Positions 1 through 23,200 of a stretch of DNA of 26,978 nucleotides are shown here, one piece after another. A program made the translations under genes and the position numbers. The notes under the pieces were generated by a model. It made no database searches. It was not told the DNA's origin and saw nothing but the letters and a program-made list of their open reading frames with translations. The DNA is from a virus, in the IMG/VR virus record IMGVR_UViG_3300030202_001659, positions 1 to 26,978 of that record, one strand, 5' to 3'. Position 1 is the stretch's first letter; each line of letters opens with the position of its first letter.

Positions 1-338
1 AAACTCGTATAAATACTTGATGTCTGTATGTTATGTAAAACTGGCTGACTCTTATCACTTCTCCAATCCCAAGGATTTTTGTATTTAGAATGTCCCCATC
101 CTTGCACAAATGCATATGCTTGATACATCAACGATTCCGGCTTTCTTGCTTTACCTGACTTTTTACCTTGATAATCTAATTGATGAAAACCATCCTTCTT
201 AACCTGCATACAAAGTTTTTTTGTACTAGATGGTATTTTAAATTTCTTACCAGTTTCCTTCTCAGCTCTCCTAATCTCCTTCATAAATTTATCTGGAAAT
301 ACAATATCTTCCGTAATTAAGTCTCTCAGTTTAATCAC
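1..338 (-). CDS. Partial hypothetical protein with capsid-targeting-like leader, GTG start
   Basis: This minus-strand reading frame is open from a GTG at 336-338 to the left edge, giving 112 codons with the C-terminus missing. The GTG overlaps the stop of the preceding gene (331-333) and has an AGGAG Shine-Dalgarno (347-351) with 8 nt spacing, which makes the start convincing. The protein begins MIKLRDLITE, nearly the same leader as the 94-residue protein two genes upstream (MIKLKELIKE), then continues as a Lys-rich, soluble-looking sequence with an aromatic stretch (FVQGWGHSKYKNPWDW). I do not recognise a family. The leader ends in Ile-Thr-Glu and resembles a T4 capsid-targeting sequence ending at a gp21 cleavage site, so an internal head protein is my inference. 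Its place in the head operon agrees with that. Confidence 0.7.
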   Translation of the reverse strand, partial: MIKLRDLITEDIVFPDKFMKEIRRAEKETGKKFKIPSSTKKLCMQVKKDGFHQLDYQGKKSGKARKPESLMYQAYAFVQGWGHSKYKNPWDWRSDKSQPVLHNIQTSSIYTS

Positions 339-1134
339 GCTTACTACTCCTATTCCAAGAACGAATCATACTGTAAAGAGGGGGGAGATGTTTTTTAAGT
401 GTTTTTATCATAATTCTCTCATCAGCTTTATTATCGTTTGCTCTTCCAGCTTGAGCTGATAAACTAATAAACTCTTTTTCAAAGTCTCTTAATAGAACTT
501 CGAAATCACCATATACTTTATCGATTTCTCTATTCTCATTTACAGATTCATTAACATCACGTTTACCAGTAAGCTTATATCCTAGTTGTTCGGCATTTTC
601 TTTTCTAGCTCTTTCAAATTTTTTCTTTTTCGAACCCTTGAGTTCCCCACCAAAACCTTCAGTTGTACCACCAAACTGTCTTGCGTAAAAATTAGCATCA
701 GATTTAGATTGTTTTTTTGGTTCTTCTTTTTTCTTCTTTTTTGCTTTAGATAACATAGCTTTTGCTTTGTCTTTTATTCTACTAATGATACCCTTTGCTT
801 GTTTGTGTTGAGGATGACTTTTATTAGATAACGCTGTTTTGACTTTTACTTTTTTACCACCACCAACTGAAAGTTCTTTTTCTTTTGCCCTTGCCATAGC
901 TGCTCTAACACCAGCTGCAATAGCTGCAGGATTTTCAAAAAGTTTATTTTCACTCTTTACCTTAGTAGGTAAACCTTTATGTTTAGTAGAAGCATATTTC
1001 TTCACGTCTTTTCCTTTCATACTTTTTGCAACATCTCTAGCTTTCTTAGAAAACTTAGATGCTGGAGCATCACCTTTTTGTATAGCCCTAACAATACCCA
1101 TAAACTTTTGTTGTTTTTTAGATACAGAAGGCAT
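331..1134 (-). CDS. DUF3008-containing basic protein, possible internal head protein
   Basis: 267 residues. Residues 1-60 (start MPSVSKKQQKFMGIVRAIQK, including KKYASTKHKGLP) match what I know of DUF3008, a short Lys-rich domain of unknown function common in marine phages. An LFE/N junction (65-68) follows, then an Ala-rich helix (NPAAIAAGVRAAMARA), a poly-Lys stretch (about 118-145), and a C-terminal helical part after two VNE motifs (VNESVNEN, 194-201). LFE/N fits the T4 gp21 cleavage style ([L/I]xE), and VNE is a relaxed variant. The very basic composition would suit DNA binding inside a capsid. The ATG overlaps the stop of the 94-residue gene by one base and has no clear Shine-Dalgarno, so it is probably translated by coupling. 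The packaged-protein role is inferred. Confidence 0.85.
   Translation of the reverse strand: MPSVSKKQQKFMGIVRAIQKGDAPASKFSKKARDVAKSMKGKDVKKYASTKHKGLPTKVKSENKLFENPAAIAAGVRAAMARAKEKELSVGGGKKVKVKTALSNKSHPQHKQAKGIISRIKDKAKAMLSKAKKKKKEEPKKQSKSDANFYARQFGGTTEGFGGELKGSKKKKFERARKENAEQLGYKLTGKRDVNESVNENREIDKVYGDFEVLLRDFEKEFISLSAQAGRANDNKADERIMIKTLKKHLPPLYSMIRSWNRSSKRD
347..351 (-). promoter_or_regulatory. Ribosome binding site deciding a GTG start
   Basis: AGGAG on the minus strand lies 8 nt before the GTG at 336-338, inside the end of the upstream DUF3008 gene. It supports translation of the partial gene at the left edge from a non-ATG codon. Confidence 0.65.
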
Positions 1135-1418
1135 TATTTTAATTTTTTAGTTAGTTTAGCGGCCTCTCTCATAAAGTTAGTTACATTATCTTTATAAAGT
1201 TTTTTCAACTGTTTTGCAGCTTCACGATTCTCTGGTCTTGCATCTGCTAAAAAAGCCTGTTCTAACTTAAACATTTTATCTCTGAACCCACCCTCAAGTT
1301 TTGCAAGAGATTGAAATTTTTTCTTTGCTCTATTCTTATCTTCAATACTTTCGTTTATACCACAGCAAGAACTACCACAATTACATTTTTCTTTGATTAA
1401 TTCTTTTAATTTAATCAA
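1134..1418 (-). CDS. Small Cys-cluster protein with capsid-targeting-like leader, TTG start
   Basis: 94 residues, starting at a TTG (1416-1418) directly after the protease stop (1419-1421). A strong GAGGGG Shine-Dalgarno at 1426-1431 supports this start. The N-terminus MIKLKELIKE is a short amphipathic helix ending in Ile-Lys-Glu. A cysteine cluster follows (CNCGSSCCG, Cys12, 14, 18 and 19), then an INE/S motif (about 21-24) and a Lys-rich helical remainder. The two Glu sites would bracket the Cys cluster if the prohead protease cuts there. The cluster could bind a metal or form disulfides; I cannot tell. No family is recognised. The position directly after the protease suggests a head-assembly or internal head protein. 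Confidence 0.8.
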   Translation of the reverse strand: MIKLKELIKEKCNCGSSCCGINESIEDKNRAKKKFQSLAKLEGGFRDKMFKLEQAFLADARPENREAAKQLKKLYKDNVTNFMREAAKLTKKLK

Positions 1419-2030
1419 CTAACTTCCCCTCATTATGTCGTTGATTATCGATTCAACTTTACAATAATCACCACAGGTTCTACCAACTATTTTAGACTCA
1501 TTTATTGATTCATTTGTTGGATGTAAGAAAGCACCATGTGTAGATGGATTACTAACAAAGTCAAAAGCAATCAATTCAAAATCGTCTTGTACTTGTTGTG
1601 CATCTCCTTCGTTTACAGTCTCAACTGAACCCATACCACGAGAACTGATACCTAACTTAATACCACTCTTAAATAATTCTTTTAATATGTTACCACTTGG
1701 TGTTCCAAGAACTTCAACTGTACCTAGTAGATTGTCACCTTCCCAATGCATTTCCTTGACATTGTGAGAAACATTTTGTAAATTTACTACTGATGATTCA
1801 GGATGATCTAACTCACCCATTGCTCTTCTTTGTTTTATAAACTCCGTTGTATACTTATCTGCTTCACGTTCTAGTATTTCACGAGGATAAATTCTACCAT
1901 TTTGATTTTTAGCTTCTGCTCTTTGTAAAACACCCTTAACAATTAACTTACCACTATTTTCTTTCATGGATTCGTTTATTTGTTCTGGTCTTACCTCAAA
2001 AGGTAAATAATCTACTATTAGTTGTTTCAT
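1419..2030 (-). CDS. gp21: Prohead core protease (T4 gp21-like)
   Basis: 203 residues, close to T4 gp21 in length. Family hallmarks visible: NGRIYP (44-49), MGELDHP with the likely catalytic His76, GISSRG (127-132) with the likely nucleophile Ser129 or Ser130, and an acidic AFDFVSNPS segment (Asp157). These belong to the herpesvirus-assemblin-type phage maturation proteases. The enzyme would sit in the prohead core and cut scaffold, internal proteins and the capsid protein after [L/I]xE. It has INE/S motifs at 18-21 and near 176-179, plausible self-processing sites that would release a leader and a Cys-containing tail. Its ATG overlaps the 62-residue gene by 4 bp (ATGA), with a GGAAGAG-type Shine-Dalgarno. 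Confidence 0.92.
   Translation of the reverse strand: MKQLIVDYLPFEVRPEQINESMKENSGKLIVKGVLQRAEAKNQNGRIYPREILEREADKYTTEFIKQRRAMGELDHPESSVVNLQNVSHNVKEMHWEGDNLLGTVEVLGTPSGNILKELFKSGIKLGISSRGMGSVETVNEGDAQQVQDDFELIAFDFVSNPSTHGAFLHPTNESINESKIVGRTCGDYCKVESIINDIMRGS
1426..1431 (-). promoter_or_regulatory. Strong ribosome binding site for a TTG start
   Basis: GAGGGG on the minus strand ends 7 nt before the TTG at 1416-1418. It lies inside the last codons of the protease gene, so the two genes are translationally linked. The site is the main reason to accept TTG as the start. Confidence 0.6.
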
Positions 2031-2223: not shown

Positions 2224-2661
2224 CTACTGTAGTTGTCCGACCTTGTTCGCTAACTTTACTAACCTTTCACTAATCTTGTTTAGAGCCTTATGTGTGTTTT
2301 TCCAATATGACCTAGAATCTACGTTCAATTCATTTTTAAGACGAACATTCATCTTTACTAATCTATTTAATTCATTGAGACTATCTCTAATCTCTCTCAT
2401 AGAACGACCTATTTTTTGTTTAGGTGTCATTGTTTCATCGTTTCTATAGTCGTGATATCTACCTTCATTTACTTTTTCATATCCACTTGCTTGAGTTATC
2501 TTTTTCTCTTTATCTTTATCTTTCTTTCTACCACCACTAAATGCGTAAGGTGTTCTAGGTGGGCCTTCGCCACCATCAATAGCACCTGTTACAGATACTT
2601 CTTCAAGTTCTTGTCTGATTAACTCTTTGATAATTTCTTTAAGTTTATCCCTTGTGGACAT
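2224..2661 (-). CDS. Hypothetical head-module protein, possible prohead core component
   Basis: 145 residues. An N-terminal amphipathic helix (MSTRDKLKEIIKELIRQELE) leads to LEE/V (19-22) and a VSVTGAIDGGEGPPRTPYAF segment (22-41). That Gly/Pro-rich piece ending TPYAF resembles one I associate with head-module proteins of marine T4-like phages, but I cannot name a family. A KVNE/G motif (63-67) precedes a coiled-coil-like C-terminal half. The [L/I]xE site after the leader fits prohead protease processing. The start has a textbook AAGGAG site 7 nt upstream and overlaps the end of the 289-residue gene by 17 bp. Role inferred from position: prohead core or scaffold-like. Confidence 0.8.
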   Translation of the reverse strand: MSTRDKLKEIIKELIRQELEEVSVTGAIDGGEGPPRTPYAFSGGRKKDKDKEKKITQASGYEKVNEGRYHDYRNDETMTPKQKIGRSMREIRDSLNELNRLVKMNVRLKNELNVDSRSYWKNTHKALNKISERLVKLANKVGQLQ

Positions 2662-7545: not shown

Positions 7546-10500
7546 CTATACGAATTTTAACATTCCTAATATTTGATTTGCTGGAGCAAACGCTCCAGTA
7601 TACTTATACAATTTTCCTTTAAACACAAAAGTTATACCCTCTGATGGTACGACTGACTTTAAACCACCAATTGCATTTAATCTATCTAATTGAGTCTTTA
7701 ATGTGTTTAAAACTTTCGGGTCTTTTGATTTTTTTACCTTGTTTATTGCAGATTTTAAATCTTTTCTTATCTGTTGAGCTGATTTTGATGGGTTTGCTGC
7801 TATAAAGTCACTAAGATTAGACAATATTTCTGCCCCTAACTCAAAAAACAGAACTTCCCAATCTCTAATATGTTGTTTTTGTAATTTTGCGTGGTCAATT
7901 TTGTCTGTGGTTAAAATCCAGTTTAAAAATTTAGGATATTTTTCTAAATCTTTTCTAATTTGAGGAATTTTATAAGATTTATCAAAAAATGCCCATCTTT
8001 TTGTTAATTTTATAAGAATATCATTAGACGGATTCTTATAATCGGTCTGTTTTGCACCATTAAATATATATTCCATCCAATATGCTTGGTGATAATCAGA
8101 CAAAGTATCAGTATCACCTAAGTTATATTGATTTTGTAACTTTTTTAACTTACCTAAGAAGTAACTTTGTCTTTTTGAGAAGTCTTTTACTTTTGGTAAG
8201 TTAGTTATAAATGGTTTTGTGATACTATACGTCTTCTGTATATTTTGGTTTATCTGTTTTATCATACCAGCTAACATTCTAGCACTACCTCTATCCTCAC
8301 CAATAGGAGAACCAGCAGCATCGTATTCAATTGTACCATGAAATTGTAATAGTGATTTATCATAAGGTATAACATTTGCTGTTTTAGGATAAATTACTTC
8401 CAATGACATGAATTTTTTACCCTCACCAAATATTTTGTCTTTTTGTTTTTTACTTAAACCCTTTAAAGCTTTTTGTAAGTCTCTCATAGCAGATACAAAT
8501 GCATATTCTATATCACCCCTACCAGCAAACATACTTTTTATACCACTAATACTAAGAGCATTAGCACCATGATTTTTAATATGCCCTTTGTTACGAGCTG
8601 CGATAAGTTTACCATTCTTCCAACTTATCATTATATTCTGACCATCTGTTTTTTCTGTAACCGCTCCTTCACTATCAAGATTACCTTGTAATGTATTAAT
8701 AATTAGTGTCTTAAAATCTGAAAATGTAAGATTTTTATCATCGAAAGGATGGTTAAGGTGTCCATAAGCACCACCCTCTATTAGTAACTTTACCTCTTCA
8801 TTTAAATTAATTGATTCTTTTAGTTTTTTCTTTTCGGTATTACCTACGTTATCATCACCAACACCAGGTAATACAGGTGTTTCTACTGCTACACCAGTAT
8901 AACCTTTTCCATCTGGTGTAATACCCATCCATTTCACCAATTCATATCCTATATTATGTAATACAGTTCCTTCTATATAATTTTTGTAAGATTGTATTGG
9001 ATTATCTGTACCAAATCTAGTTCCATATTCACCAGATTGTTTGTGACCATATGCAACTGCAGGTACTACATTATAATTTAGAGTATAATCGAAATCTGGA
9101 TTTACAGCACCATCACTTAAAATATATTGTATGACTTCCCAACCAGTATCTCTGTACATATCATCTAACCATTTTTTAGAAAATTTCTTATAATCATTAA
9201 AACCTCTGTAAAAAGTAGGTGGGCCGTCATCAGTTGGATTTATTGCAGTAAAACTTCCCTCATTTATTATTTTTTTCAAATCAACATCTGATAAAAATCC
9301 ATCAATAGATTCAAACAATTTTCTAAATTTGTTAGTCATCATATTATAGATACCTTTATCATAGTATCCAAATACCTTTTTAAATCCTTTTACCCTTTGG
9401 TCATCCTTTACATCTGGATCTCCTAACAACTTTCTCATCATAGTTCCACTAACTTTACCAAATTGTGGAGCTGTTGTAAAGTATCCATGTGTTTCGTAAC
9501 CTTCTAAATTCTTTTTATTCTTTTCAAACTCTTGATAATAGGTTTTACCACCACTTTTTTTCTTACCACCTTTTAATCTACCAGCATCCTTTTCACCAAA
9601 AGCATAAACGACTGCTGTTGTTTTAGGATTAAATTTCTTTAAAACGTTATCAGCAACATAAGGTGTTCTTTCTTGTACAATTCTATTTTTTGGTATACCC
9701 ATTTTTACCATATGACGAACCTTTTCTTTAAAGTCCATTGGATGTCTTGGTAATTGTTTAATATTAGATGTAGTTATATAAGCTTCGTCAACTTGTTTTG
9801 CTAACCACTTGTATGTAGCTAGATGTCCACTATGAAATGGTTGAAATCTACCACCGAATATACCGATAACCTTTTTGATTTCTTTTTGTTCTATCAATCT
9901 TACATCAAATCTTTTCTTTGTCTTTTCGTCTCTGACATGAAAGATAGACTTACCTCTCTTTTTCATATGTCCTATGACTGTCCAAGCACCAGATTCTCTT
10001 TTCTTATCAAAACTTTTATTTGTTACTGTTTTTTGAACTTCTCCTATAACATCATACCCTATAAGGGCCACTGCTAAATCTCTATCAGAATCTCCTTTGA
10101 ATTTTTTTACTACTTTTTTATAATTCTTTTTAATCATAGCAGAAGCTTTCTTCGGAGACTTTCCAAGCATTACCAAAATTTTATGTATGGAATCAATTGT
10201 TTTTTTATTTTCATTTACTTTTTTATAACCACTACCATAAGGAACTGATGTGTTACCTTTCTTCTTCATCTTCTTTACCATCTTACGACTTGGTGATGGT
10301 AAGAATCCTTTAGGAGCTCCAAACTCCTCATTTTTCTTTTTGGTTTTCTTCTTCATCTTATTGATGTATGAACGATAGACAGCAGCTTGTGAAGCCTTAC
10401 CCATTTCTCTAGCTCTCTGTTCCATAGCGACAGCTGCTTGTATTTTATGAGCATGTGACCTACCACTATTTTTTATTTTAGATACAGAAGCTTTAGCATC

Positions 10501-11682
10501 TTTTACAGTAGCAAATTTCAATCCTTTGATTGTACCCTTTGGATTCTCATCAGTATACAAATCTGAATGAGACTTTGAACCACGGTGTTGTCCTTTCTTA
10601 CGAGGTACACGAGGAGCTTCTCTCATGCTACGATTTGGTTTTTTATGTAACTTTTTCATTTTTTTACGTTGAGCAAGAGATGTCGGTATCCAATCTGGCC
10701 CAAAGGTAAAGTTTTTATAACTTTCACCTTTTAGTAAACGAAATGTAGTAACCTTTTTACCATTAATAGTTGGCATACCGTGGTCATCTGTACCTATAGA
10801 TTTTACAATAACTTTTTTGTTTTTAAATCTACCTGTAAGGATAGTATCTCCTACTTTCACTGGTATCTTTATTGATTCAAAAAACTTAGATTGACCAGGA
10901 TCTTTAAATATCTTCTGATGTTTCTTTTCTCTTCTTATCCATTTTTTTGCTATTTTATTTTTTGGTGGTTTTTTAAGAAACTTATCTATTCCTTTACTAA
11001 CTAACATCTTAAAATGTTTTTTAATTTGAGCGTCTGATAACATTTTGTTGTTTTGAACAATCATAAAATTAGAACCACCAAATAAACCTTGAAAAGCACC
11101 TAAGTTAGCCTGTACATCTTCCCAACTTTTTCTTACGATACTATCGGGTACAACTCTATCTCTTTTTTCATTTCTTTCTCTAGCTATCTGTAGTGAAGTA
11201 TTTACAAAAACCATGTAGGTATCGTAACCCAAATCCATTAGTTCTTTTCTTCTTTTCTTTATTTTATCAAACTTATGACCAGTACCATCTATAATAACAC
11301 CCAACTTACCTTTTGTGTATAACCTTAATCTTTCTTGACTCAAATCCTTAGCAAATCTTCTTAATCCACTTGTATCATAGTCAACAGGTTTACCTTGTTT
11401 ATCAACACCAGTTAAATCTTGAAATAATTCATCAGGCATATTATCGATATCAGTAGTACCGAAATACTTTTTCAGTAACATCTCTAATTCAGAATCTTGG
11501 TTAACCATTTTTAGACCAGTCTTAGATACATTTATCTTTTCGGGTATACCGAATAGCTTTTGTGCTACAAAAGATTTACCACTACCAGGTCCTCCAGCTA
11601 AAAAGATAGCCTTAAAAATACCAGGATCTCTAACTCCTTCTTCTAAAAAAGGTTTTGTCAACCACTCTGTAAGTTTGTTCAT
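7546..11682 (-). CDS. Giant multi-enzyme protein: kinase, nucleotidyltransferase, ligase; candidate packaged polyprotein
   Basis: 1,378 residues. The leader MNKLTEWLTKPFLEE (1-15) looks like a capsid-targeting sequence ending in LEE/G. Residues 20-235 are a P-loop kinase of the zeta-toxin/polynucleotide-kinase type (Walker A AGGPGSGKS 29-37, IIDGTG 130-135, Arg-rich lid 168-179). A small beta domain follows (about 270-318), then two very basic segments (340-490) and a helical part (492-595). Residues 599-790 are a cytidylyltransferase/NMNAT-like domain (GGRFQPFHSGH 610-620, VSGTMMR 744-750). Residues 809-956 are unrecognised. Residues 970-1378 are a DNA/RNA-ligase-like nucleotidyltransferase (EKTDG with Lys1011 as likely nucleophile, SLEVIYP near 1093, EGITFVFKGK 1348-1357). 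[L/I]xE motifs fall at LIE/Q 596, LFE/S 789, INE/G 806, LKE/S 954, LNE/E 960 and LIE/G 967, all in linkers. It starts directly after the endolysin stop. Domain calls are firm; packaging and cleavage are inferred. Confidence 0.9.
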   Translation of the reverse strand: MNKLTEWLTKPFLEEGVRDPGIFKAIFLAGGPGSGKSFVAQKLFGIPEKINVSKTGLKMVNQDSELEMLLKKYFGTTDIDNMPDELFQDLTGVDKQGKPVDYDTSGLRRFAKDLSQERLRLYTKGKLGVIIDGTGHKFDKIKKRRKELMDLGYDTYMVFVNTSLQIARERNEKRDRVVPDSIVRKSWEDVQANLGAFQGLFGGSNFMIVQNNKMLSDAQIKKHFKMLVSKGIDKFLKKPPKNKIAKKWIRREKKHQKIFKDPGQSKFFESIKIPVKVGDTILTGRFKNKKVIVKSIGTDDHGMPTINGKKVTTFRLLKGESYKNFTFGPDWIPTSLAQRKKMKKLHKKPNRSMREAPRVPRKKGQHRGSKSHSDLYTDENPKGTIKGLKFATVKDAKASVSKIKNSGRSHAHKIQAAVAMEQRAREMGKASQAAVYRSYINKMKKKTKKKNEEFGAPKGFLPSPSRKMVKKMKKKGNTSVPYGSGYKKVNENKKTIDSIHKILVMLGKSPKKASAMIKKNYKKVVKKFKGDSDRDLAVALIGYDVIGEVQKTVTNKSFDKKRESGAWTVIGHMKKRGKSIFHVRDEKTKKRFDVRLIEQKEIKKVIGIFGGRFQPFHSGHLATYKWLAKQVDEAYITTSNIKQLPRHPMDFKEKVRHMVKMGIPKNRIVQERTPYVADNVLKKFNPKTTAVVYAFGEKDAGRLKGGKKKSGGKTYYQEFEKNKKNLEGYETHGYFTTAPQFGKVSGTMMRKLLGDPDVKDDQRVKGFKKVFGYYDKGIYNMMTNKFRKLFESIDGFLSDVDLKKIINEGSFTAINPTDDGPPTFYRGFNDYKKFSKKWLDDMYRDTGWEVIQYILSDGAVNPDFDYTLNYNVVPAVAYGHKQSGEYGTRFGTDNPIQSYKNYIEGTVLHNIGYELVKWMGITPDGKGYTGVAVETPVLPGVGDDNVGNTEKKKLKESINLNEEVKLLIEGGAYGHLNHPFDDKNLTFSDFKTLIINTLQGNLDSEGAVTEKTDGQNIMISWKNGKLIAARNKGHIKNHGANALSISGIKSMFAGRGDIEYAFVSAMRDLQKALKGLSKKQKDKIFGEGKKFMSLEVIYPKTANVIPYDKSLLQFHGTIEYDAAGSPIGEDRGSARMLAGMIKQINQNIQKTYSITKPFITNLPKVKDFSKRQSYFLGKLKKLQNQYNLGDTDTLSDYHQAYWMEYIFNGAKQTDYKNPSNDILIKLTKRWAFFDKSYKIPQIRKDLEKYPKFLNWILTTDKIDHAKLQKQHIRDWEVLFFELGAEILSNLSDFIAANPSKSAQQIRKDLKSAINKVKKSKDPKVLNTLKTQLDRLNAIGGLKSVVPSEGITFVFKGKLYKYTGAFAPANQILGMLKFV

Positions 11683-14287: not shown

Positions 14288-17200
14288 TTATGTAGTTATC
14301 TGTCCACCACCTGGTGTACTTGCTGAACTATAATCACTACTAAATCTAATCGATGGTGGTGCATCTACTGGTGGTGCTACAGTAGCTACTCCAAAACTAA
14401 ATTTACCCTGCACTGTTTCTGTTGTGTGAACAGTATTTCCGTAACCTCTTATCGAAGTTCCTGGTTCTAACTTCAATCCTCTTTTTGAATTTGATGCATT
14501 AGAATCAATACTACCCGATGTTATTGAGAATGTAGCTATCTGACCACCAGCTGCCGTAACGTTACCTGACATCGACACATTACCAGTAGCATCTATATCG
14601 AAGTTGTCTGATGCTATTATTACTTTACTTCCATCAAACTTTACATGATTACCACTATTACCTACAAAAAGTCTTGCTGTTGAGCCAGCACCCCCAACAT
14701 CTAACTGAATACCATCATTACCAAATGTCGTATTATTTATAGATATTCTTTCATTATCACCATCAAGTGTTATTGAATCCGCACCAGTACTTCTTATCAC
14801 ATCTCCTATAACTTCCCAACCAGCTATCTGACCACTTGTAGCTGTAATTTTACCAGTTATCTGAGCAGCAGAAGCTGTGATTTGACCAGTAGAACCTTTT
14901 AACTTTAATGTTGAACCAGCTGAATTAGATAAATCATCTCCGAGTGTAAATCCACCAATCTCACCACTCGTAGCAGTAACCTTACCCTGCATAGTAACAT
15001 TACCATTAGCACCGTTTAAATGAAAGTTAGATGAACTAATATGTAATTCTTCTGCACTTGGTCTACCATTTAAAAATATATATGCTTTATCTCTTCTTCC
15101 TACAAAGAAACCTGGCATCCTACTACCATCACCTCTTCTTACGATATCGATTACAACCCCAACAGAGTTTTGATTATCGAATGCAGCTAAAGATGAACTT
15201 TGAGCGTTGCTGTATCCATCAACATATAGTCTTGAGAAAGGTTGGTTTATTACTCCGTTAGCATCTTGAAGGCCTCCGGCTATTACATTTTTTGTAGCGC
15301 CTGATTCAATTATCATTTTACTTGAATTATTATTTATCTGACCTACGACACTCATCTTTGAAGATGTAGTAGGAGCATCATTTCTTATCTGTATGTAACT
15401 ACCTGAGATTTCTTCAAACTCGTAAACCATTTTCAAACTGGAGTTAGAACTTCTTCTTAGATTACCAATTGCGGATGCCATAGTTAGTCTCTGTGGTTCT
15501 CCTGCGAAACCTGATTTTGGATGTACCACATCAAAGATTTGACCAGAACCAGAAAAATCACCTGTACTATCTCCTATACTTTCTAATCTAATCATCGCTG
15601 TATTGAAACTTCCTGTAGATGGTGTTAGTATCATTCTAGAAAATCCTTGAGAATGAGCTGCTGTGGATATAAACTTCGACCTAGCACCTTGTTTTACAAT
15701 ATCAAATCCACCTATCTCTCCACTATCAGCAGTAATCTTACCACTAATATTAGCATCAGATGCAGTTATCTGATTCATCACGACATCACCATCAGGTTGT
15801 ACATGAAACTTACTAGAACTTATTTCTATGTTACCATTACTACCACTAACAAATTGTGATTGTCCACCTAAGAAAAATCTTTCTCCTAAAATATTTACCT
15901 TTGAACCACTCAAGAAAACATTGTCTGATTTCAATACAAAAGACTTTGTACTACTTCCGTCACCACCACTAACTGACTGACCAAATGATATAAGATTGTT
16001 GTCGTCTGCTTTGAATAAGAAACCACCACTAGCAGAAATAAAAGCAGTAAACTCAGAGTTATCGTAGAATCCCATATGTGGATAATTTAAATACAGACCT
16101 GCTCCAGCTGGAGACGGTGTTATATCTAAAATAGAACCACTTACATCCGTCATAATTCTTTCTGCGGTAGACGAAGATACTACATTCAAGTTTGATTGCA
16201 ACTGGATTTGTACTGCTGATGAAGAAGCAGCTGCTCCTTCTCCAATACCCACAGCGTAATTCTGTGCATTGGTCTGAGCCGCTGACGCGGATGTTGCAGC
16301 TCCTGCTCCAACCCCAACAGCGTAACTTTCAGCGTTTGACTGAGCCGCTGAAGCTGATGCAGTTGCACCAACCCCAATGTTTGTTATGTTTGTCTGTAAT
16401 GAACCAGTAGCTGATTGTAATGATGCTGTCGCTTGACCTAAACTCGTGACACTAGATTCTAATGACGCTGTTGCTTGATTTAAAGAATTTAGTGAATCAA
16501 AAGAAGCTCCACTAGTTATTGTTATTGCACCTGAAATCTTAGCAGCAGAAGCAGTTATCTGACCATTTGATTTTAGTATTAAATCATCGTTAGTAGAATT
16601 TATTTGTGTACTAGCAAGTTCAAATCCACCAATAGTACCACCATCAAATAAAACTCTAGAACCAGTTATTTGACCAGTATTACCATCTAGAATTAATGGT
16701 GAGGTTTTATCAACTGTAATTGAACCACCCATTCCACCATGTGATGAACATCTATAGTATAATTGTGTTGGTGTTGCCTGTGTGACAGCAATCTGTGTGT
16801 AAGCACCACTTGAACCAGGTGAACCATTGACAGTAACTCCTGTGGTGTAGTAATCAGTACCACCAGATGTCTGTACAAATCTTAAAGGATGATTTTCATT
16901 ACTATCATCTGCTTGGTCAAATCTGTATGTATTACCAGGTATAAATGTTAAAGAAGCTTGTGCTACTCCGTCTATTACATATTTTGAACTACCATTAACA
17001 GTTACGGTATATATAGTAGTAGTACCATCACCAGCGTCAGCTGTACTTTCGATACTATTAGATTCTATTTTCATACCACCAATTAAACCACTTGTTGCTG
17101 TTATAGCGCCAGACATTGATACTGCTGATGCTGTTATTTGTCCTAGAGCTCCTTTTAATTTCAACGTACCACTTGTAGAATCTAAATCATCACCAATTGT

Positions 17201-20200
17201 AAAACCACCTATTGTACCACCAGCTGCAGTAATCTCACCTGACATTGTGACATTACCATCTGAAGTGAGATGAAAATTAGATGAACTTATCTCTATATTT
17301 CCGTTACTACCACTTACAAACTGACTACCACCACCTAAGAAAAATCTTTCTCCAAGTATGTTTACTTTAGAACCACTAAGAAAAACGTTATCTGATTTTA
17401 ATACAAATGATTTGGTTGATGAACCATCACCACCACTAATACTTTGTCCAAAAGAAATTAAATTATTGTTATCAGCTTTAAACAAGAAACCACCACTTGC
17501 TGATATAAACGCTTTATATTCTGAATTATCTACTATATTTACTTGTCCACCCATATTAGAATGAGCAGTACAATAGTAATATAAAGTTGATGGTGTGCTT
17601 GAAGTAATTGTTATATCTACATACCCACTACCAACAGTAACACCAGTTGTGTATTGTGAACTATTACCAGAATCTGTTGAAAATCTAAATGGGTGACTAC
17701 CTACAGCAGAAGTATCAAATCTATATGTAAATCCAACTTGTAGTTCTACTGTAGCTTGTTGTACACCATCTATGTAGTACGCACCACCAGCTGCTGTTAC
17801 AGCGTATGTTTTATCTGCTGGTTCTGCACTATCGTAAAATCCTAAGTGTGGAAAATTTAAATATAATCCACTACCGACTGGTGATGGTGGTGTATCTAAT
17901 ATAGAACCAGTTGCGTCTGTCATAATCCGTAATGCAGTTGAAGATGAAACTGTGTTTAAATTTGATTGTACTGCAGAGGATGACGCTGCAGCTCCTGCTC
18001 CAACCCCAACTGCATAGTTTTGAGCATTTGTTTGTGCAGCTGATGCTGATGCTGTTGCCCCCGCCCCTACTCCAACAGCGTAACTCTCTGCATTGGATTG
18101 AGCAGCTGAAGCTGACGCTGCTGCTCCTGTTCCTACATCTGACGCATAATTTTGAGCGTTAGTCTGAGCAGCTGATGCTGAAGCTGCAGCTCCTGTTCCT
18201 ACATCTGATGCGTAATTCTGTGCGTTTGATTGAGCCGCTGAAGCTGATGCTGCAGCACCAGTACCAACATCCGAAGCATACGACTGAGCATTAGACTGGG
18301 CTGCTGAAGCTGACGCAGCAGCTCCTGTACCGACATCGCTCGCATACGACTGAGCATTAGATTGAGCCGCTGATGCTGATGCTGTTGCACCGACACCAAT
18401 ATTTGTTATATTTGTTTGTAATGAACCTGTAGCATTTTGTAAAGAAGCTGTTGCTTCCCCTAAACTCGTAACACTAGACTCCAATGAAGCTGTGGCTTGT
18501 CCTAAACTTGTGACACTAGACTCTAATGAAGCTGTGGCTTGTCCTAATGCAGTAACACCTGATTCTAAATTATTTATTGTATCAAATGAAGCTCCAGCAG
18601 TTATCGTTATAGCACCTGATATCTTAGCAGCTGAAGCTGTTATTTGTCCATTAGATTTTAGTATTAAATTATCATTAGTAGAATTTATCTGATTTGTACT
18701 TACATCAAATCCACCAATAGAAGCTGATACAAACTTTGCATAACCTTGTGAAGTAATTTGTGCTAGTGGTGAACCACCAGTAGGTGTTGAAATACTATTA
18801 GCTGATAAGTCACCTTCTATTGTTACATCAGATGTAATAATACCACCTTCTAACTTAAATTTAGAACCAGTAATACCACCATCTGCATTAAGTACAAGTG
18901 TACCATTAGAACTAGATATCTGTGTTGAACCAATATCAAAACCACCAATAGAACCTTCTGTTGCATCTACCTTTCCTACAACTATATCACCATCTGGTTT
19001 TACGTGAAACTTACTAGAACTAATTTCTATGTTACCATTACTACCACTAACAAATTGTGAACCACCACCTAAGAAGAATCTCTCTCCTAAAATATTTACA
19101 TTCGAACCACTTAAAAATACATTATCAGATTTAAGTACAAATGATTTCGTAGAAGAACCATCTCCACCACTTACAGATTGACCAAATGATATGAGGTTAT
19201 TATCATCAGCTTTGAACAAGAAACCACCACTAGCTGATATGAAAGCTTTGTATTCACTACCACTATAGTAACCCATATGTGGAAAGTTAAGAAATAATCC
19301 TTGTCCACTTGGTGATGGTGGTGTTGATAATATTGAACCACTAACATCAGTCATAATTCTTTCTGCAGTAGATGATGAAACCGTATTTAAATTACTTTGT
19401 ACCGCAGATGATGATGCAGCTGCTCCTGCTCCTATTCCAATAGCATAATTTTGTGCGTTGGTTTGAGCAGCTGACGCTGATGCCGCAGCACCAGTACCAA
19501 CATCAGATGCATAGTTTTGAGCGTTGGTTTGTGCAGCTGAAGCTGACGCAGCAGCTCCTGTTCCTATATCTGATGCGTATGTCTGTGCATTAGACTGAGC
19601 AGCAGACGCAGATGCAGTTGCTCCCACTCCTATATTTGTTATATTAGTTTGTAAAGAACCAGTTGCTGATTGTAAAGAAGCTGTTGCTTCTCCTAAACTT
19701 GAAACACTAGATTCTAAAGAACCAGTTGCTGTATTTAATGCAGCTAATTGGTCTGCTACTGCACCACCACCTGTAATATTAATAGCTCCTTCTACTGTTA
19801 AGGTACTACCATCCCAAACTAACTTATCACCCAAACTAAATTTACTACCACTATCTACATAAAATCCTGTGTTTGAGTTTCCATGTGTTCCTACACCATT
19901 ATATAACTTACCAGATTCCATATTGATACCACCTATAGAACCTGTGTTTGCTACTATTCCACCCTCTAGAAAAACATTTTGACTATATAAACCAAAACCT
20001 GCATTTGCTGGATTTGTTCCATGTAATCTGTCTGTACTCAATCCACTTAAATCACCAAGTCTAGCTTTTAAATCTACATCATAAACTCCACTACCAGTTC
20101 TCTCTACTATATCTATATAAGGCGTGGTTGTATCTGTTGGATTTGCATTTAATCTTATATAACCAGTTCCAATTCTACCTGTTGAAGCTAATACTTGACC

Positions 20201-23200
20201 AGGTGCAAGAGATTGTGATTGATTTGCATTATCACCTAAGAAATCACCACTACTTCCACTTTGATAACCACGTACAACGTAAAGTTTTCCAGCAAAATTA
20301 GTATCACTAGATGGTTCGTCTCGTGAAGCACTCTGTACTAAAATATATTCTGTTGAAAATCCAGTATCACTAATTTTCTTTGCTACTAATATTTCTCCAT
20401 CATTGTTATAACTACCTGTAAAACCTGTAGCGTTGACTACACTCATTGTAGCTGCTGATGCTGATATGTTAAGTGAACCAGTTAGTGTGGTTGAATTTGC
20501 AACATATAACTGACCACCAACTGCGTTTACACTTTCCTTTTCAAATACAGTAGTTTTTAACGTACCACGAATTGATATGTTTTCAAATTCAGCAATACCG
20601 TTGTCTGCAGAATCTAATCTGAATCCTTTTGTACCACTAGCAAAATCATTTGTTTCTATAATACCACTAGAGTTTAATGTTAAGTTGGAACCAACTATCG
20701 TATTAGAACTTAATGTCCAACCACCGATTGTACCTGATGTTGATTTTAATACACCAGCTTTAGTTACACTAAACGGAGCACTACCAAATGTAGCGTGTCC
20801 TAACTGAATACCCTCATCACCATCAGCTATAAAAATATTATTACCAGTTCCTAAAGTAACTCTTTTACCACTAGCATCTAATGTGAAGTTGGTAGCTGTT
20901 AGAGTATTACCATCTATAGTGAACCCAGCTATCTGACCACTTGTTGCAGTTACCTTTCCTGTAATCTGAGCAGCTGATGCTGTTATTTGACCACTAGCTC
21001 CTTTTAATTTTAATGTACCAGCAGTAGAACTTAAATCATCTCCTATTGTGAAACCACCGATTGTTCCACCAGCTGCAGTAATCTCACCTGACATTGTGAC
21101 ATTACCTTCTGAGGTTAAATGAAAGTTAGATGAACTTATTTCTATGTTTCCATTAGAACCACTTATGTATTGTGATGATTCTCCAAAATAAAATTTTGGT
21201 GTTTGTAATGTGATGGAACTACCACTCATATGTACTGTTGCTGCAGATATATCTAATCCAGTTCCATTAAATTTTATATGACCACCACTACCTACGACTG
21301 AAAATAATGGTGTTGAGCCTCCCGCAACTGCAAGCATTATTCCTACCTCACCATAAGCTTTATCTGGAAGAGCTACACTTGGTTGTAAACTTATAAATGG
21401 ACTATTACTATTACCTCTTATGACAACTTCTTGACTAGTTCCCAATGACATCGAAGCTTGTGTTGATGAGAATTGAACAGAACCAGCTGAATCAGTAAAC
21501 CCATCAGGTGATATGTTCCAACCAGCTATTGATTGAGTAGTTGGTCCTATATACATAATATTATCGTAATTCGAAGCAGAAATTTGTTTTATTACTTGGA
21601 TACCATATTCATTATTTGCATGTAAATTAGTAGTATCACTTAATCCACCAACTCTGACTACTTTTACTCCACCATCAACTACATCTTCATCTTTTCTATA
21701 TAACTGTAAACCCTCTCCAATATTTTTAACATTATCTTGAGTAGCTGATAAATAAACTCTTGTAATATCTTGATGTGCAGCTGAACCACTTATGGATTTA
21801 AAGATAAACCCATCAGTTATATTCCAACCAGCAATAGAAGCTGAAACAGTTGTAGCAAATCCATCTGAAGTTATAGAAGCACTTGGTGTTGGAGCAGCTG
21901 ATGGAGTATTAATTGAGTTAGCAAATACTTCACCTTGTACAGTTAGAACTCCACTATTAAATTCTAAGAAATCACCTAAACCCTTATCACCTAATAATAT
22001 ATTACTAGCAGAAACATCTCCTTCTGGTGTTAAATGAAATCCACTTGAACTTATTTCTAAATTACCATTACTTCCACTTAAAAATTGTTGTGTACCACCC
22101 ATAAAAAATTTAGGAGTTTCTATGGTAACTTGACTTCCACTTAGTGTAGTTGTTCCTGTGTTAAATATTTCTATGTTTCCACCACTACCACTTATAAAAT
22201 TAGATGCATTTCCAAAAAAGAATTTAGGTGTTAATAATGAAACCTCACTACCACTAATAGTAGCTTTTAAAGTTTTAATATTTACACCATTACTGGAATC
22301 ATATCTTAAAAAGTTTTGAGCACCATCACCAACATAGAATCTTGGAGCTCCACTATTGAATCCTAATTGGATTCCTTCATTTCCAAAGGTGTGTGAGTTT
22401 ATGGATATTTCTGCACTATTTCCGTTTCCATTAAGTCTAATTCCACCACCTGTACTCGATATATTATTACCACTTATACTCCACGCAGCAATTTTACCAC
22501 CTGTAAGTAATGCATTCGAACCTGTTATCTGTCCACTTGATTTTAGTATTAAATTATCACCTGTATCATTTATCTGAGTTGATGATAATTCAAATCCACC
22601 TATCGTTCCACCTGTAAATAATACACTAGAACCAGTAATTTGTCCACTATCTTTTAGTTGTAAAACAGAACCAACAGAAACACTAGTTGCAGAAATATCT
22701 ATACCACCTATTTGACCACCAGTTAAGTCTAATGCAGAAGCGGTTACATCACCACTAGCCTTTACGTTAAAGTTAGATGATGATATAAAAAAGTTATTTC
22801 CTGTAGATGAACCACTTATAAAAAAATTATCAGATGATAACGCTCCACCACCTATAGAAAAACCACCTAATGTACCAGCAGTTGCTGTTATTGTTCCCTG
22901 CATAGCAACATTACCACTATTATCTAAATGAAAGTTTGATGAACTGATTTCTATATTTCCATTTGAACCACTAACAAATTGACTATCACTTCCAAGATAA
23001 AATTCGGAAGAACTTATACTTGTAGTTGTACCATCAAATTTTATATGACTTCCGTTAGCATCACCTATCAATGCAGCTGGAGAATTACCTCTAAGAAATA
23101 TTCCTTTATTTGTACCATCAATACCAGTAGGTCGTGGATTACCAGCAGATATAAATCCACCATCACTTGAACTTATGAATAAATTGTTTGCAGCTAATTT

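Follow-up and report, generated by a model that had tools for sequence, protein, structure and literature searches.

The gene at positions 7546..11682 of the IMG/VR virus record IMGVR_UViG_3300030202_001659 (26,978 bases, analysed over its whole length, positions 1 to 26,978, and called the window hereafter) raises the question of why a marine T4-like phage would join kinase-like, NMNAT-like and RNA-ligase-like domains in one chain of 1,378 residues. We consider it likely that the gene encodes a head cargo polyprotein, which would be targeted by its N-terminal leader, cut by the S77 prohead protease acting in trans and delivered as separate products together with the DNA, since the sites at the module boundaries are kept in relatives whose parts have been shuffled. 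The modules, the leader, the sites with their conservation and the protease were read from the sequence; from them we infer that this particular protein is packaged, cut and injected, and what the substrates of its enzymes are. To this extent our analysis supports an initial annotation of the locus, which had interpreted it as an injected polyprotein.

Modules and predicted cut motifs of the polyprotein

The frame of 1,378 residues claimed by the initial annotation is present and encoded on the minus strand (11682 to 7546); coding on the plus strand at 7546-11682 was rejected, because this strand contains many stops. The gp21-like protease that the same annotation had invoked is encoded within the window. 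The two genes and the parts of the polyprotein are listed below, with slashes marking predicted cuts.

7546..11682, minus: polyprotein open reading frame, 1378 aa, about 156 kDa uncut; from the ATG at 11682 to the stop that ends at 7546; full-length homologues in L001, L002, L005 and others
11638..11682, minus: capsid-targeting-like leader, residues 1-15, MNKLTEWLTKPFLEE; predicted cut before Gly16
10897..11637, minus: module A, polynucleotide-kinase-like P-loop domain, residues 16-262; Pfam AAA_33 2.8e-9, Zeta_toxin 9.4e-8
10618..10875, minus: module B, small basic domain, residues 270-355; follows FFE/S at 269 and ends MRE/A at 355
10312..10617, minus: module C, basic domain, residues 356-457
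10210..10311, minus: module D, residues 458-491; ends GYKKVNE/N
10039..10209, minus: module E1, residues 492-548; ends DVIGE/V, after which relatives have different modules
9889..10038, minus: module E2, residues 549-598; ends LIE/Q
9310..9888, minus: module F, NMNAT-like nucleotidyltransferase, residues 599-791; ends LFE/S; Pfam CTP_transf_like (PF01467) 5.4e-9
9259..9309, minus: linker, residues 792-808; ends IINE/G, with [LIV]xE before module G in 35/35 homologues
8824..9258, minus: module G, residues 809-953; conserved DDGPxT and WMG
8776..8823, minus: linker with three sites (LKE/S, LNE/E, LIE/G), residues 954-969
7549..8775, minus: module H, RNA-ligase-like nucleotidyltransferase, residues 970-1378
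1419..2030, minus: prohead protease (S77, gp21-like), predicted cutter; Peptidase_S77 (PF03420) E=3.7e-30, phrog_207 2.5e-54

The P-loop GGPGSGKS and the motifs GRFQPFHSGH and KTDG all lie at the residues quoted for them initially, as do the linker sites, with [L/I]xE ending at residues 598, 791, 808, 956, 962 and 969. The count of eleven [L/I]xE in the polyprotein was reproduced, but the expectation by chance, previously put at about ten, is 8.1 from the composition. The weight that had been placed on the position of the sites over their number was justified: eight of the eleven fall within linkers or leader, which make up 17% of the protein (p about 7e-5, or about 0.009 if conditioned on the positions of all Glu residues). 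A ninth, ending at residue 548, coincides with a module boundary in relatives, in which four different modules follow an E1 ending in [VL][IL]GE, so we regard this residue also as a joint. A relaxed motif marks other boundaries (FFE at 269, MRE at 355 and VNE at 491). The earlier list of sites, correct for those that it named, was incomplete and missed the joint at 548. The remaining two, inside folded cores (48 and 1129), are probably not cut.

Profile searches of module A against the PDB found the kinase of bacterial Pnkp and PSTK, the former being the best match, although a weak one (3.7e-4); the matched chains, labelled metallophosphoesterase, are the kinase domain of Clostridium thermocellum Pnkp. 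The P-loop, N46, D48, R155-N156 and R159 are invariant in homologues; they were compared with the P-loop, catalytic Asp and RNxxR lid expected of Pnkp kinases. The middle third of the polyprotein consists of small, very basic pieces with isoelectric points above 10. Among these, module B occurs as a separate gene in HTVC008M (AGE60462) and directly after the leader in four homologues (L020, L024, L046 and L074), and module C shares 70-80% identity with segments of mosaic proteins that S-SM2 and P-TIM68 encode in their head regions. Module F matches an archaeal NMNAT profile (3.9e-6) and contains the HxGH (HSGH) and SGTxxR (VSGTMMR) motifs, and by both motifs and family profile is predicted to be an NMNAT or other nucleotidyltransferase of the HIGH superfamily. 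The AlphaFold2 model of module G was uninformative (predicted local distance difference test, pLDDT, 39) and allows no conclusion on its fold. In module H, the motifs EKxDG, E127, EG and KxxK, invariant in homologues, correspond to the set of the covalent nucleotidyltransferases; the Pfam search gave no ligase match and the sequence search against the PDB nothing but ribosomal eS6 noise. Its AlphaFold2 model is mediocre (pLDDT 72) and its fold matches are weak (E 0.01-0.3), the best of them being RNA ligases (an archaeal RNA ligase, T4 Rnl2 and T4 Rnl1).

No embedded peptidase was found in the polyprotein by Pfam or PHROGs, and self-cleavage was rejected for this reason. Likewise, the same searches found in it none of the hub domains of polyvalent proteins (zincin metallopeptidase, ADP-ribosyltransferase, DdrB-ParB and others); a sub-threshold ParB match was seen only in L112.

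Boundary sites in shuffled homologues

A scan of IMG/VR retrieved 341 stretches encoding a relative, from which 80 loci were kept and 36 non-redundant complete homologues were compared. Module order and content vary among these 36, with modules shuffled, inserted or deleted: L076 has the order C-B-A-D-...-F-G-H, L063 and L023 start with B-A-, and a whole set of homologues is without the kinase. In L073 and L077, insertions encode both a CCA-adding enzyme (PF01743, PF12627) and an HD domain (PF01966). The additional module that separates G from H in L012 recurs in G001 (63440..64054), as part of another gene with a leader. The form in two open reading frames seen in L047 looks like a frameshift inside a module; we rejected it as a true split and did not use it as evidence.

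Within these 36 homologues, the linkers contain 314 [LI]xE against 121 in shuffled sequences (2.6x), while the domain cores are depleted (127 against 181, 0.70x). The control with Asp, [LI]xD, was not enriched in linkers (0.75x), and ordinary proteins of two related genomes gave 1.17x for [LI]xE. Since the linker borders were set by us from module profiles and the homologues are related, z-scores overstate the case and a collapsed set is fairer; after collapsing linkers at 50% identity (55 representatives) there were 66 [LI]xE against 30.4 (2.2x), a number reached in 0 of 1000 shuffles, with an Asp control of 0.88.

Conservation is strong at the boundaries of modules F, G and H. All 35 of 35 sequences have L-F/Y-E after module F and [LIV]xE before module G, and at both places the Glu is invariant, while the P1' residue (and also P2 before G) varies and synonymous codons change. 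The G-H linker has at least one [LIVMF]xE in 35/35; nine proteins without a site directly before H (LLLM/GG) have another one upstream in the same linker. In jumbo phages and a Lake Baikal contig, relatives with 31-39% identity retain the sites, even where another module takes the place of G (L109). Additionally, the propeptide sites of the major capsid proteins of relatives (LIKE/A, NLME/A, LLTE/A and IVSE/A) support [LIV]xE as the specificity of this group of proteases. Boundary sites that are conserved and avoided within domains are as would be predicted for a protease-processed polyprotein, and the alignment check proposed initially, that sites be conserved while linkers vary, gave a positive result, with boundary sites kept and modules moved.

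A wider family of mosaic head-region proteins, made of small modules joined at xxE sites, was observed in marine T4-like phages. Those at L097:5081-6745 (G002 45081..46745), L102:5992-8118 and L107:38537-40024 share modules across genes and phages. The protein at L085:7254-9590 (Agrobacterium phage Atu_ph07, AUZ94865) joins an N-terminus of YRGMK type, possibly ADP-ribosyltransferase-like, to the kinase family of the polyprotein, with VTE/GV at the joint. That at L108:7132-9855 (Flavobacterium phage immuto_2-6A protein 183, 907 aa, annotated as NadR) appears polyvalent-like by eye, with a Pol-beta-like N-terminus, an NMNAT-like middle (PF01467, E 0.03) and two HExxH-like motifs.

The leader, its neighbourhood and the virions of relatives

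The leader of 15 residues ending in LEE/G, as described initially, was confirmed as MNKLTEWLTKPFLEE/G. It is conserved in homologues as MxKLTxxLxxPFLxE, ending in [LI]xE followed by a small residue, and stands in front of whichever module opens the chain, be it the kinase (module A), B or C. Conversely, free-standing modules have leaders of their own: the kinases of HTVC008M and Melnitz start with MIPFILKE/G and MKTFAELQE/G, respectively, the ligase of a 462-kb phage with MKFLKSYEEFLNE/NLILE/GGSYGH, and the nucleotidyltransferase-first protein from Baikal with MGNLIKEWIKGILVE/E. An NT5C-type phosphatase of HTVC008M, also free-standing, has a leader-like start. Judged by these sequences, the leader behaves as a portable, capsid-targeting-like peptide that is separable from its cargo.

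These features resemble those of the T4 internal proteins IPI-IPIII and Alt, which have an N-terminal leader of about 10-15 residues ending in [LI]xE, an S77 protease, basic cargo and a gene in the head region. In T4, IPIII needs no more than its first ten residues to be packaged; cutting depends on residues 8 and 10 and is blocked by Asp at position 10 (P1), and Alt has a further cut at its C-terminus (PMC9026906). In keeping with this, Asp is not enriched at the sites of the window family. Unlike T4, where each gene yields one protein that is trimmed at the N-terminus (in Alt also at the C-terminus), here one chain holds several enzyme modules with sites between them.

The window corresponds to a T4-like late block on the minus strand, with a SbcC/gp46-like fragment (by eye), very long fibre genes, an endolysin, the polyprotein gene and then the head and packaging genes; downstream of the polyprotein gene follow a small protein at the place of TerS, TerL, portal, head proteins and the S77 protease. 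The start MIKL[KR][DEK][IL][LI]xE is shared by other genes, both in the window and in two relatives. Further features near the protease gene are:

3..338, minus: protein cut by the window edge, leader MIKLRDLITE/D, GTG start
331..1134, minus: second mosaic protein, DUF3008 plus modules common to other mosaic proteins
1134..1418, minus: 94-aa protein, leader MIKLKELIKE/K, TTG start
2224..2661, minus: head protein, probable propeptide ending LEE/V

The DUF3008 protein has modules in common with mosaic proteins of relatives (L020 14783..16525 and G001 64653..65510). A further observation concerns the fibre open reading frame of 3,940 aa (14288..26110, minus), in which inserts at 16730-17017 and 17552-17809 look cupredoxin-like by eye (HPxRF ... 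YYxCxxHxxMGG) and could be copper sites of a tail-fibre protein. The window TerL is nearest to those of Microcystis phage Mel-JY01 (55%) and Flavobacterium immuto phages (54%), and megablast of the window against phages gave no match. The host is not established, since a scan of genome contigs matched only three, in metagenome-assembled genomes of different phyla.

The cyanophages provide indirect virion evidence for the polyprotein family. Proteins gp136, gp137, gp154, gp155, gp156 and gp160 of S-CREM2 are listed among those of purified virions (PMC10665884, Table 3). In the sequences that we read, gp136 has the leader MQTFSMFFSE/D and lies with gp137 between TerS and TerL, an interval that holds mosaic proteins in S-SM2 and S-SM1 and to which the polyprotein gene of the window is close. 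S-CREM2 gp154 is NMNAT-like and has a leader of the T4 internal protein style (MKNFSSFLTE/A), and gp160 is a mosaic, the modules of which recur in S-SM1, S-SM2 and a 554-aa mosaic of the relative G002. As a separate observation, residues 21-44 of gp160 (S-CREM2, L106) are a 75% identical copy of residues 61-84 of the major capsid protein, the region of its mature N-terminus, beside a likely cut site of gp160 itself. The T4-GC190 cytidylyltransferase was found in virions of S-SM1 (PMC3037559), and its S-ShM2 member starts with MKKFSTFISE/A. Module F resembles the cytidylyltransferase/NMNAT of T4-GC190, a HIGH-superfamily nucleotidyltransferase that has a T4-internal-protein-like leader and is in particles of cyanomyoviruses (PMC3037559, PMC10665884); T4-GC190 is, however, a separate gene and not a kinase-ligase polyprotein, and module F is only distantly similar to it (27% identity with the S-CREM2 protein over about 90 residues). 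Finally, the kinase-bearing protein of Atu_ph07 is coding sequence (CDS) 53 and lies in the cluster of CDS 31-76; virions were found to contain the products of 29 of these (PMC6102473), a figure for the cluster that is not specific to CDS 53.

Alternative readings and the probable role of the cargo

Several results weigh against a packaged and processed polyprotein. To our knowledge, there is no virion proteomics for this phage or any close relative. The cited virion data, which are from relatives only, show no cut polyprotein, and the authors of the S-CREM2 study caution that co-purified infected-cell protein is not excluded (PMC10665884). The reversed motif Ex[LI] is also enriched in linkers (1.68x, or 1.42x after collapsing), so part of the linker signal reflects charged-helix composition, which does not explain the contrast with Asp or the invariant Glu. 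Some boundaries (C to D, B to D) have no hydrophobic residue at P3, and the substrates of ligase and kinase rest on weak profile or fold matches. Additionally, genome-wide counts of N-terminal [LI]xE are mildly above chance (21 against 15, 24 against 19); we therefore judged leaders by family and not by the motif alone and, this generic test being weak, make no statement on how many cargo genes a whole genome holds.

The chain could be packed and injected as a polyvalent protein from which the leader alone is removed, with domains that act as one chain and linker motifs that are fortuitous or vestigial. Such multi-domain proteins injected as one chain are described (PMC5512222), the virion RNA polymerase of N4 is packaged unprocessed, a folded context can shield [LI]xE from prohead proteases and, self-cleavage apart, the prohead-protease cuts in SPN3US remove N-terminal propeptides only (PMC10052503); we nevertheless hold this unlikely, because an uncut chain is hard to square with site conservation at every F-G-H boundary, depletion in the cores and the replacement sites. 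Like the polyvalent proteins of Iyer et al. (2017; PMC5512222), the polyprotein is large and multidomain, with a variable architecture, conflict-related enzymes and a predicted injection; unlike them, since the processed ones are described with embedded peptidases (PMC5512222), its cutting is predicted in trans and at boundaries. It is very improbable that we are dealing with an early or middle multi-enzyme protein of the cytoplasm, its leader being an unrelated amphipathic tail. The T4 RNA-repair enzymes Pnkp and Rnl1 are made after infection and are not fused, and the polyprotein family is without direct virion detection, which would agree with such a protein, but the gene, like those of relatives, directly precedes TerS and TerL within the block of late head and packaging genes, and the leader matches those of the T4 internal protein style on virion-detected proteins. 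The least credible explanation is a recombination artefact in which shared linker DNA would mark crossover points, the Glu motifs being kept by shuffling and not by cutting: the linkers GYKKVNE and KLKEQKE do recur almost verbatim at different junctions, yet the sites occur in unrelated linkers with different codons, at several junction types and in relatives at 31-39% identity, free-standing modules bear different leaders, and motifs with Asp instead of Glu show no enrichment.

If the polyprotein is packaged and processed, the 15-residue leader would bring the uncut chain into the prohead core and, during head maturation, the S77 protease would cut after [L/I/V]xE in leader and linkers. The predicted products are a polynucleotide-kinase-like enzyme, several small basic proteins, the NMNAT-like transferase, module G and the RNA-ligase-like enzyme, which would stay with the DNA and enter the cell together with it. 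Kinase and ligase, the CCA-adding and HD enzymes of some relatives and the HTVC008M phosphatase suggest RNA, probably tRNA, repair, and the NMNAT-like module suggests NAD supply. The likely job of the cargo would thus be nucleic-acid (probably tRNA) repair and possibly NAD(+) supply before phage gene expression, countering host RNA-cleaving or NAD-depleting defence. The presence together of kinase-like and ligase-like domains, with CCA-adding and HD enzymes in some relatives, appears similar to the tRNA repair by Pnkp and Rnl1 of T4 and to bacterial Pnkp; the T4 enzymes are separate and made after infection, while here both domains are in one chain. We regard as doubtful, albeit compatible with packaging and cutting, that the cargo serves NAD supply instead of RNA repair, with kinase and NMNAT working as a split NadR (nicotinamide riboside to nicotinamide mononucleotide to NAD) and the ligase-like domain as a user of NAD. 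Module F is NMNAT-like, systems against NAD depletion are widespread and some phages are known to have NadR-like fusions of kinase and NMNAT (PMC9503650, PMC7824862); however, the module A profile found Pnkp and PSTK and no relatives of NadR or nicotinamide riboside kinases, the PHROG matches of the polyprotein include polynucleotide kinase, the insertions are CCA-adding and HD enzymes, and no NadV was found in six related contigs, which are possibly incomplete.

Virion NMNATs, T4 internal proteins and polyvalent proteins were already known; in the open-access literature, subscription papers being outside the search, we found no report of a prohead protease that splits a multi-enzyme cargo polyprotein at the joints between its parts. 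We lean towards the view that such polyproteins constitute a class of phage cargo: the protease of capsid maturation would free a ready-made RNA-repair and NMNAT kit in the head, and its short cut motif would also be the universal joint by which modules are shuffled, across marine T4-like phages, between polyproteins and single genes with leaders. If this is true, head-maturation proteases would unpack multi-enzyme cargo, beyond trimming propeptides, and leader plus boundary sites would constitute a sequence rule predicting which of the many unknown genes of marine T4-like phages have products that are delivered into cells; likewise, tRNA repair and NAD supply could be active at time zero of infection.

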